A stretch of DNA of 32,703 nucleotides, taken from NCBI GenBank assembly GCA_025055285.1, contig JANWXM010000003.1, positions 1-32,703 of the forward strand, in the 5' to 3' direction. Both the position numbers and the translations under genes were made by a program. Below are positions 1-32,703 of the stretch, piece after piece (the stretch's first letter is position 1; each line of letters begins with the position of its first letter). Source of the DNA: Saprospiraceae bacterium. Lineage in GTDB: Bacteria; Bacteroidota; Bacteroidia; Chitinophagales; Saprospiraceae. The notes under the pieces are model-generated. The model worked only from the letters and a program-made list of their open reading frames with translations, did not search any database and was not told the origin of the DNA.

Positions 1-359
1 AAATTCGGCTTTGAAGGTAATCCCTCTGGAACGGGCGGGTAGTATTCCGCTGGCAGAAAAACAGTACAGGCCTGATACAGTGTGTCTACAATAACCTGGT
101 TGGCCGACTCCACGGAAATACTCGGATATCCTGCCGACTCTAAAGAGCAGACGACGGACACATATTTCCCCTCTGCATTCAACCGACGCGCCAGCGCGTG
201 CAGCAGTGTCGTCTTGCCCGTCTGCCGCGGCGCATGGATGAGAAAGTACTGCTTGGCTTCAATCAGCCGACGAATTTCAGGATACATGCCGCGGAGCGGG
301 TCTACCATGTAGTGCTCTTCCGGGTCGCACCGGCCGGTGGTGTTGAAATAGCGCGCCAT
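1..359 (-). CDS. AAA-like ATPase, 5' part (runs off the left edge)
   Basis: The minus-strand frame opens with ATG at 359 and stays open to base 1, giving 119 codons of an incomplete gene. The product starts MARYFNTTGRCDPEEHY and carries a Walker A motif APRQTGKT (K49), so it is a P-loop ATPase of the AAA-like type (AAA_35-like, my family call). No function can be assigned from this part. It is the inverted partner of the gene starting at 31853: the first 62 codons are about 95% identical in DNA, and after that the two differ strongly. A TATCTTTG promoter box lies only 6 nt upstream of the ATG. The start is chosen because both copies share it and the box directly precedes it. Walker B and the rest lie outside the window. 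Confidence 0.8.
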   Translation of the reverse strand, partial: MARYFNTTGRCDPEEHYMVDPLRGMYPEIRRLIEAKQYFLIHAPRQTGKTTLLHALARRLNAEGKYVSVVCSLESAGYPSISVESANQVIVDTLYQACTVFLPAEYYPPVPEGLPSKPN

Positions 360-396
360 GAGGACAAAGATAGGCACAGGGCCGCCGAATTCGTTC
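174..396 (-). repeat. Inverted repeat, left arm (5' end of the ATPase gene)
   Basis: This segment is the inverted counterpart of 31816-32038. It covers the promoter box, the start codon and the first 62 codons. By eye there are about 10 mismatches in the 186 coding bases, most of them synonymous. Similarity drops sharply on the gene-internal side at the left end of this interval. The arms are about 31.4 kb apart and could support inversion or gene conversion. Confidence 0.75.
365..372 (-). promoter_or_regulatory. Bacteroidota -7 promoter box TATCTTTG for the left ATPase
   Basis: A perfect TAnnTTTG match lies 6 nt from the ATG at 359. The second ATPase copy has the same box at the same spacing (31840-31847). 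With a start site about 7 nt after the box, transcription would begin at or next to the ATG, so the mRNA may be leaderless. No clear -33 TTTG is visible. Confidence 0.55.
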
Positions 397-31456: not shown

Positions 31457-31535
31457 CATTCATTTACTTTTCTACAGCCCTCTGATTTATCAGAGGGTCT
31501 GGCGTTTTCATCTATCATCCTAACAGGCATCACAT
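31457..31535 (-). repeat. REP/BIME-like palindromic repeat, copy 2a
   Basis: Read on the minus strand it matches copy 1 part by part: GTGATGCCTGTTAGG, ATGATAGATGAA, CGCCAGACCCTCTG and a hairpin CCCTCTGAT/ATCAGAGGG. The block after the hairpin is diverged. It lies head-to-head with copy 2b, which is the paired layout of BIMEs. Confidence 0.6.
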
Positions 31536-31554
31536 CCTGGCGGGCGGGAGTCGT

Positions 31555-31648
31555 AGATGTGATGTTCGTCAGGATGGTAGATGTGAGGGTGGGGCCCTGG
31601 GTCTGTCCACCCGATGAATCGGGTGGTTACGGGATGATAGATGTGCCT
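31555..31648 (+). repeat. REP/BIME-like palindromic repeat, copy 2b
   Basis: Parts in order: GATGTGATGTTCGTCAGGAT, GGTAGATGTGAGG, a hairpin CCACCCGAT-GA-ATCGGGTGG (31607-31626), then TTACGGGATGATAGATG. The hairpin sequence differs completely from copies 1 and 2a, yet it folds and sits at the same place. This compensatory change argues that the structure matters. Confidence 0.6.
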
Positions 31649-31815
31649 GTGTCCGGAAACGCCAGTTTGTGGCCGCTCGGCAGGCATGCGGTGGCCTTTC
31701 CCTGTGTGCTCTCGGTGGTTTCCTTTTTAACTGCAGAGGACGTAGAGAAACACATAGAGGTTAATGGGAAGCGACCTTTTCGAAGGTAGAGAGTGGTTTT
31801 GGGCCTTCAACAGGC

Positions 31816-32038
31816 GAACAAATTCGGCAGCCATGCAGCTATCTTTGCCCTCATGGCGCGCTATTTCAACACTACCGGCCGGTGCGACCCGGAAGAGCAC
31901 TACGTAGTAGACCCGCTTCGCGGCATGTATCCTGAAATTCGTCGGCTGATTGAAGCTAAGCAATACTTTCTCATCCACGCGCCGCGGCAGACGGGCAAGA
32001 CGACGCTGCTGCACGCGCTGGCGCGTCGGCTGAATGCC
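31816..32038 (+). repeat. Inverted repeat, right arm (5' end of the ATPase gene)
   Basis: Counterpart of 174-396 in inverted orientation. Identity is about 95% over the first 62 codons and falls to roughly two thirds over the next 17 codons, then lower. Confidence 0.75.
31840..31847 (+). promoter_or_regulatory. -7 promoter box TATCTTTG for the right ATPase
   Basis: A perfect TAnnTTTG match 6 nt before ATG 31853, the same as in the left copy. Transcription would start at or next to the ATG. Confidence 0.55.
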
Positions 32039-32703
32039 GAGGGAAAGTATATCTCCATCGTAAGTTCCTTAGAGTCAGCAGGTTTTCAGGACATCACCGT
32101 AGCCGAAGCCAACTGGGCGATTGTCAGTTCTTTACGCGACAATGCAGAACTTTTCCTCGACGAGGAGCACATGCCTCCGGTGTTGGAGCGATACAGTCCG
32201 ACGGTTACGCTCTTTCAGCGGTATTTGCAGGATTGGTGTCGAGGCTTGCCCAAGCCGTTGGTGTTGTTGTTGGACGAGGTGGACGCGCTGTATGACGACG
32301 TGTTGGTGTCGGTGTTGCGGCAGTTGCGCGACGGTTTTCAGCGTCGTCCGCGGTTGTTTCCGCAGTCGGTGGCGTTGGTGGGTCTGCGCGACATTCGGGA
32401 GTACCGCCTCAAGGCGCGCGGCGAAAATCCCTCCCTGGGCGCCGGCTCGCCGTTCAACGTCAAGGCCGAGTCCTTTTTCCTGCCGGTGTTCAGCGAGGCC
32501 GAGGTGCGCACGCTGCTTGGGCAGCACACGCAGGAGACCGGCCAGGTGTTCACCGAGGAGGCCATTCAGAAACTTTACGCCTACTCGGGCGGTCAGCCCT
32601 GGCTGACCAACGCCCTGGCCAACGAAATTGTGGCCAAGATGCTGAAAAACGACTACACGCAGCCCATCACGGCGGACATGGTGGAGGAGGCCAAAGAGCG
32701 GCT
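31853..32703 (+). CDS. AAA-like ATPase, 5' part (runs off the right edge)
   Basis: The frame is open from ATG 31853 to the last base, 283 codons without a stop. Walker A is APRQTGKT (K49) and Walker B is LVLLLDEVD (D141, E142). Further on come VALVGLRDIREYRLK, SPFNVKAESFFLPVFSEAEV and a winged-helix-like GQPWLTNALANEIV. This is the order of AAA-like (AAA_35-type) ATPases that are common and repeated in Bacteroidota and cyanobacteria. Relatives often carry a nuclease-like C-terminal domain, which would lie beyond the window. Base composition rises clearly in the later part (GC-rich third positions from about 32220), unlike the core genes, and suggests horizontal origin. The function is unknown. 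Confidence 0.85.
   Translation, partial: MARYFNTTGRCDPEEHYVVDPLRGMYPEIRRLIEAKQYFLIHAPRQTGKTTLLHALARRLNAEGKYISIVSSLESAGFQDITVAEANWAIVSSLRDNAELFLDEEHMPPVLERYSPTVTLFQRYLQDWCRGLPKPLVLLLDEVDALYDDVLVSVLRQLRDGFQRRPRLFPQSVALVGLRDIREYRLKARGENPSLGAGSPFNVKAESFFLPVFSEAEVRTLLGQHTQETGQVFTEEAIQKLYAYSGGQPWLTNALANEIVAKMLKNDYTQPITADMVEEAKER

Follow-up and report, generated by a model that had tools for sequence, protein, structure and literature searches.

Two genes for a predicted ATPase stand in opposite orientation at the ends of a 32,703-nucleotide stretch of Saprospiraceae DNA, the whole of which is here called the window, and are almost identical over their first codons and poorly alike thereafter, raising the question of how members of one gene family come to share a beginning in this way and to differ in what follows it.

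Two inverted gene copies at the ends of one contig

The window comprises positions 1-32703 of contig C33 of genome G000 (3.62 Mb, 93 contigs) and, as a run of 10 N stands directly after base 32703, represents one assembled contig, which begins inside one of two inverted copies of the gene (copy B) and finishes inside the other (copy A). Copy A lies on the forward strand (31853..32703, codons 1-283 and part of 284, up to the 10-N scaffold gap) and continues past the gap in C33 to a stop at about 33427, with a length of 524 codons when the N codons are counted. Copy B lies on the reverse strand with its M1 at 359 and is truncated by the contig start, leaving only codons 1-119 (3..359); it gave a 78% match to copy A over 112 residues in a tblastn-type comparison. 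When residues 1-283 of copy A were used as a query, copies A and B were the only two matches in G000 at E 0.001, and the assembly therefore lacks the 3' part of copy B. The gene was matched in 11 of the 42 genomes of the window's genus, G000 included.

Both copies encode the Walker A motif APRQTGKT at residues 43-50 (31979..32002, forward, in copy A; 210..233, reverse, in copy B), the residues of which were invariant or almost so across 66 homologues, and copy A also encodes the Walker B strand (residues 136-142, ending D141 E142; 32258..32278, forward). Between the two motifs lies a segment of about codons 82-127 that we call V1 (32096..32233, forward, in copy A; codons 82-119 at 3..116, reverse, in copy B, where the contig end cuts it), and downstream of V1 the framework of copy A runs from codon 135 onward (32255..32703, forward), this being the side that was alike between copies in other genomes.

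Similarity between the two copies breaks close to V1

A repeat search of the window returned one inverted repeat pair (88-396 and 31816-32124; 309 nt, 85%). Within it, the shared 5' tract of a promoter-like box and codons 1-62 (174..396, reverse, in copy B; 31816..32038, forward, in copy A) was identical at 206 of 223 positions (92%), and the identity of about 95% that a sequence-only reading of this DNA had given for the coding part was confirmed, at 176/186 nucleotides. Where the amino acid was kept, the codon differed at 8 of 59 sites in codons 1-62 (M and W left out), as against 16 of 26 in codons 63-119 (Fisher p 1.4e-5). A max-chi-square scan of the 357 nt placed the best break after nt 230, in codon 77 (chi-square 96), with 20/230 differences before it and 71/127 after, a value reached in 0 of 2,000 permutations (largest 24.7). 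Identity passed through a shoulder of 70% in codons 63-80 to 42-47% in codons 81-120. The collapse in similarity that had been described as abrupt at codon 62/63 is therefore present, but with its main break near codon 77, and a common breakpoint across many copies does exist, at about codons 77-82 and not at 62. The accompanying statement that the proteins hardly align further on holds as low identity to codon 119, beyond which copy B lacks sequence; a recovery of similarity beyond V1 was visible in other copies, and the A/B pair ends too early for it.

The likeness of the pair begins 37 nt upstream of the ATG and takes in a TATCTTTG box 13 nt before each start (31840..31847, forward, in copy A; 365..372, reverse, in copy B), which we take to be a Bacteroidetes -7-like promoter of consensus TAnnTTTG. 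Among 45 copies (from a set of 52 that left out the partial L064 and distant or partial matches, with 7 Thiotrichaceae copies then set aside), 24 had the consensus at most 30 nt from the start, compared to 5 of 522 ATGs of the window; the remaining 21 copies mostly carried TATCTTTA or similar, as judged by eye.

The 5' ends and the following codons group the copies oppositely

For quartet analyses, the counterparts were copies C70 and C100 (or C27 for C70) of the congeneric genome G018. Informative sites in codons 1-40 grouped A with B at 11 positions, A with C70 (and B with C100) at 2 and the third tree at 1; codons 41-62 were undecided (1:2:0), and in codons 63-119 the counts were 0:71:0. 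Replacing C70 by C27 gave 12:1:1, 0:1:2 and 0:70:0 for the same three stretches. AU tests on 12 copies rejected, for codons 1-62, the groupings A+C70 (p 0.006), A+C70+C27 (p 0.0008) and B+C100 (p 0.0004), and for codons 63-119 the grouping A+B (p 7e-6); support for the A+B branch in codons 1-62 was just 85/83.

In codons 1-40, pS was 0.17 between A and B and 0.54 both for A-C70 and for B-C100, and within G018 it was 0.50 (C70-C100) and 0.46 (C70-C27), the G018 copies having their 5' residues in common and their 5' silent sites not; recent homogenisation of the 5' end is thus shown for the window genome and not for G018. These data supported the reading of the shared 5' end as a probable gene-conversion tract, in either direction, since codons 1-40 and codons 63-119, on either side of the break, group the copies in opposite ways. 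The earlier argument that purifying selection on the protein would not keep silent sites alike proved sound, as the 5' silent sites vary within the family, and of its two proposals conversion of the 5' end was upheld; the other, that a recombining 5' cassette is attached to variable bodies, was wrong, because in other copies the framework is alike on both sides of V1, and it is V1, joined in some lineages by V2, which behaves like an exchanged cassette.

Core genes of G000 and G018 were nearly saturated at silent sites (pS 0.81 for prfA, 0.74 for fumarase and 0.78 for a peptidase; UGDH was left out for a wrong frame, pN 0.55), whereas pS was 0.30 for A-C70 (codons 128-524) and 0.07 for B-C100 (codons 63-119). 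Most simply, members of the family would also have been transferred between the two species after their split.

V1 occurs as a cassette of few types within a conserved framework

The V1 of copy B was 98% identical to that of G018 copy C100 at the nucleotide level (codons 81-120), and about 45% identical to that of copy A. Saprospiraceae copies were compared in 64 within-genome pairs, a number that falls towards the 3' end; averaged over windows of 15 codons, identity was 0.75-0.89, but 0.57-0.70 in windows 81 to 125. The same dip (0.51-0.60) was seen in the 21 pairs formed by 7 copies of a Thiotrichaceae MAG, along with lesser dips at 311-335 (0.69-0.70) and 361-375 (0.64). In SAR324, for which 15 of 16 fetched stretches were used, the lowest windows were again in V1 (0.34-0.35), with no clean classes in a family diverged throughout and other dips at 0.40-0.43.

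Types of V1 were clearest in a Haliscomenobacter-like set of 24 copies from eight genomes, chosen from the best 80 of 100 matches. V1 identity in its 276 pairs fell either at 0.40-0.55 (135 pairs) or at 0.70 and above (141 pairs), with none between, while flank identity was 0.75-1.0 in all 276 pairs on the 5' side and in the 190 pairs with data on the 3' side; V1 identity correlated at 0.20 with the 5' flank and at 0.09 with the 3' flank. Both types were found within one genome in 4 of the 8 genomes. Flank pS hardly differed between pairs of one V1 type and pairs of two (5', 0.49 and 0.50; codons 135-200, 0.42 and 0.44; codons 201-283, 0.47 and 0.46), and V1 itself differed between types with a saturated pS of 0.82 and a pN of 0.395. 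In the V1 tree, type 2 formed one clade (support 100/100), a clade that the 5' tree (p 5e-7) and the 3' tree (p 0.002) both rejected. Mapped onto the 5' tree of 24 copies, V1 type required 7 changes, compared to 7.4 in shuffles (244/500 as low); on the 3' tree of 20 copies it required 4 compared to 6.0 (24/500 as low), so that a weak link of V1 type to the 3' side remains. Several within-genome pairs (BJGN, CAMDWC, JAHBTW) displayed a single V1 type or a shallow dip. Most of the genomes compared were drafts. An early stop was observed in 5 of the 24 copies (L050, L056, L061, L062, L063), and some copies may consequently be decayed, broken or misassembled.

Pairs of genomes with the gene at the same locus but with different V1 were also seen; flank lengths are given as summed alignment pieces. 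CANMVX_L037 and JAIYCH_L054 share their surroundings (89% identity over 2,149 bp upstream and 78% over 901 bp downstream), and within the gene identity was 0.96 and 0.86 before V1, 0.47 in V1 and 0.88-0.96 after it. Similarly, CANMVX_L059 and JANQZX_L092 share 3,714 bp upstream at 91%, with 0.97 and 0.92 in the gene and then 0.43 in V1; the JANQZX_L092 contig stops inside the gene. JAFMBH_L081 and JAJTER_L046 (3,815 bp upstream at 91%) differed both in the 5' end (0.71) and in V1 (0.43), and CANMVX_L061 and JAJTER_L046 had locus and V1 type in common (V1 0.96).

A second cassette is present in closed plasmids

Of 72,556 plasmid records searched at the protein level, 15 contained members of the family. 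Carriage by phages was considered and rejected, as a search of 50,697 phage records at E 1e-10 gave no match. Eight of the plasmid copies, from closed plasmids of two Pseudanabaena strains, formed a set of 28 pairs (a second place in the H4 record was left out). V1 identity was 0.33-0.53 in 21 pairs and 0.84-1.0 in 7, and a second segment, V2 (about residues 300-382), was likewise either 0.54-0.61 (17 pairs) or 0.79-0.98 (11 pairs), with the framework (165-290) at 0.81-0.91. V1 identity correlated at 0.22 with V2, 0.39 with the framework and 0.47 with the 5' part, and V1 and V2 assort largely independently in these plasmids; the copies on ABRG53e and ABRG53d, for example, are alike in V1 (0.99) and differ in residues 301-400 (0.60). 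Tyrosine recombinase genes adjoined an ATPase copy, or lay within about 1.5 kb of one, in 4 of the 8 Pseudanabaena plasmid stretches (L179, L180, L182, L185). One Pseudanabaena copy is adjoined by drmA and another by cas6.

The predicted protein joins an AAA+ ATPase to a nuclease-like domain

On the evidence of profiles and a structure model (mean pLDDT 84, pTM 0.64), the protein of about 520 residues is predicted to be an AAA+ ATPase with a helical middle part and a C-terminal PD-(D/E)XK-like domain. Full-length copy A scored above the Pfam cut-off for AAA_35 (34.5 bits, cut-off 27) and AAA_16 (34.7, cut-off 32.6), and G48, K49, T50, D141 and E142 were invariant in the 66 homologues, D141 lying on a strand modelled at 136-141. 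Also invariant were E409, D442, E455 and K457; the model places the D and the E-x-K on adjacent strands (440-447 and 450-459) with helices on either side (408-425 and 464-479), as in a PD-(D/E)XK-like core. No PD-(D/E)XK profile exceeded its cut-off in six proteins of the family (the best was PDDEXK_9 in L067, 19.5 bits against 25.5), and copy A gave no such Pfam match up to E 1.

The nearest solved folds in Foldseek were an archaeal ATPase (2qen), Orc/Cdc6 proteins, RuvB and clamp loaders, with ORC2 (1w5t) at E 1.5e-10 and TM 0.38/0.47, and the top 50 fold matches had 12-17% identity. The model gives V1 one helix (83-101), followed by a loop and the first part of a further helix (120-131), all of it lying after strand 67-72 and before the Walker B strand, and when the spacing of the initiator-specific motif was measured from K49 and E142 it pointed to residues 104-116, inside V1. 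The middle part may hold a winged helix: a sub-model for which 57 of the 66 homologues were used (mean pLDDT 65) had winged-helix repressors as its top matches, weakly (E 0.31 or worse), and with Pfam the first member had no winged-helix match and the 57 together a single weak one (E 0.015).

Probable recombination of cassettes and its alternatives

From these sequence comparisons we consider recombination between copies very probable, and give a probability of about 0.85 to recombination with exchangeable cassettes as the explanation of both the pair and the family. The genes are members of a dispersed multi-copy family in which homologous recombination between copies, by gene conversion or double exchange and either inside a cell or after interspecies transfer, very probably keeps the framework alike on either side of V1, with V1 present as a few old types whose silent differences are saturated. 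The window pair carries two V1 types behind a common 5' end that was probably converted recently, and the breakpoint first noticed at codon 62/63 would be the approach to V1.

Three accounts would dispense with such exchange. V1 might be the least constrained part of the protein, diverging by point mutation or hypermutation, and the pair an old duplication; V1 is the most divergent segment in the Saprospiraceae, Thiotrichaceae and SAR324 sets and within types its dN/dS of 0.15 is roughly double the flank values (0.04-0.07), but the two classes without intermediates and with the same flanks, the saturation of silent sites between types together with purifying selection on V1 within them, the close match of copy B to C100 in V1 and the opposite groupings before and after the break make this account improbable. 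We judge an assembly artefact, with 5' ends joined to the bodies of different copies or similar copies collapsed, to be very slightly less probable again: both ends of the window contig lie inside copies, with the 10-N gap following and the 3' part of copy B absent, and three G018 copies likewise stand at contig starts (C100, C20, C29), whereas 10 differences in 186 sites show that the 5' ends are not one collapsed sequence, and the two-cassette mosaic recurs in closed plasmids of two isolates. Least probable by some way is that selection on DNA or RNA, as a regulatory or codon constraint, held the 5' end alike. The promoter-like box that 24 of 45 copies have beside their start makes some 5' DNA constraint likely, but a nucleotide-level constraint behind the common 5' end was rejected, as 5' silent sites differ freely between genomes (pS 0.54 in codons 1-40) compared to 0.17 in the pair of one genome.

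A further rival accepts recombination and cassettes and concerns what the cassettes do. By their position, roughly where Orc1-type proteins contact DNA, we infer that V1 and V2 may be recognition modules, with V1 at the site of the initiator-specific motif and V2 roughly at that of the winged helix; several V1/V2 combinations per genome would presumably be useful, and the nuclease-like domain would act on the recognised target. By this analogy, V1 (and V2 where variable) has in our view an even chance of being a recognition module, and recognition of DNA in particular is a tentative suggestion. A role in protein-protein specificity, for co-assembly or for a partner, is a strong rival to which we give the same weight as to DNA recognition. 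In AAA+ proteins the stretch from beta2 to Walker B can bear pore loops or partner contacts, many copies per genome might gain from avoiding co-assembly, and no DNA target is known; against this, the nearest folds are those of AAA+ proteins acting on DNA (Orc/Cdc6, RuvB, clamp loaders), the protein ends in a nuclease-like domain and the 55 neighbouring ORFs hold no partner family in common. Somewhat more doubtful than DNA recognition is the analogy carried further, in which each genome would possess a putative, changing repertoire of specificities through the assortment of V1 and V2 between dispersed chromosomal and plasmid copies, and the family would be one of recognition and cleavage without a known modification partner. 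If true, it would mean that an Orc-like nuclease had come to the domain-shuffling logic of HsdS, and had done so in at least two phyla.

Relation to known systems

In HsdS proteins of type I restriction, recombination assorts two exchangeable recognition segments within a conserved framework, and the present family is alike in having a conserved framework with two recombining, exchangeable segments. It differs in that the cassettes lie in the ATPase and the middle domain and that their role in recognition is putative; among the Pfam matches of the six proteins there were no HsdS, HsdM or HsdR families, including the HsdS target recognition domain. Shuffling of HsdS is reported in PMC3077401 and other papers.

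Multi-copy AAA+ plus PD-(D/E)XK proteins are widespread, and DUF1703 proteins, described in the accessible text of PMC1913061 as AAA+ plus PD-(D/E)XK, are a close parallel. For the DUF1703 paralogues of Cardinium cCpun (PF09820 AAA-ATPase_like and PF08011 PDDEXK_9), the available text of PMC6387759 describes intragenic recombination between paralogues and states 'no apparent homogenization'. As far as that text goes, in both families an AAA+ ATPase precedes a PD-(D/E)XK domain in a protein of about 500 residues, genomes carry many paralogues, these recombine with one another within the gene, and the function is unassigned, but both Pfam domains of DUF1703 fell below cut-off in our six proteins (AAA-ATPase_like at most 11.9 bits against 26.1, PDDEXK_9 at most 19.5 against 25.5), and that text names no cassette position, whereas here the variable segments are defined within a conserved framework. 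Recombination among related DUF1703 paralogues is already published; the top matches of a narrowly worded search of the open-licence literature included no report of position-specific cassettes in such a family.

Orc1/Cdc6-type proteins resemble the family in that V1 matches the initiator-specific motif in spacing and V2 falls in the part that follows, as judged from the available text of PMC9738581. Identity among the top 50 fold matches is 12-17%. Unlike these proteins and 2qen, the family has a nuclease-like domain added, and it would be hypervariable at a place that Orc1 conserves. Where the exchanged cassettes sit, and how many there are, indicates which residues may carry specificity, and specificity is made testable by natural recombinants with one cassette in common and the other different, such as the ABRG53d and ABRG53e plasmid copies.

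Genomic surroundings of the copies

A palindromic REP-like repeat (hairpins followed by GGTTACNGGATGNTNNATG) lies beside both copies, at 31478-31677 and at about 540-660, and its core pattern, with at most 1 mismatch, was counted 9 times in G000, 45 times in G018 and 0 times in reversed controls; being so dispersed, it is not an end of the gene. A mobile unit with fixed ends was considered and rejected: the five G018 stretches matched the contig only in the gene and this repeat, but the repeat is too dispersed to mark such an end. The upstream neighbour of copy A is present in G018 at 74%, but a DNA search of five relatives did not find metE, which lies downstream of copy A, so that no empty site could be shown. 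The idea of a shared partner gene was likewise abandoned, the 55 neighbouring ORFs (60 found, five near-duplicates left out) giving 64 families of which the commonest occurred in 5. Within the window, positions 2012-2239 encode a small Cro/C1-type helix-turn-helix protein with PADLOC matches to capH and restriction control proteins. Some 9 kb beyond copy A (L006:12095-17459; about 42.6-48.0 kb of C33) lies a DrmMI or type IIG-like methyltransferase gene, and this stretch also carries a DpdE/DrmD-like helicase part.
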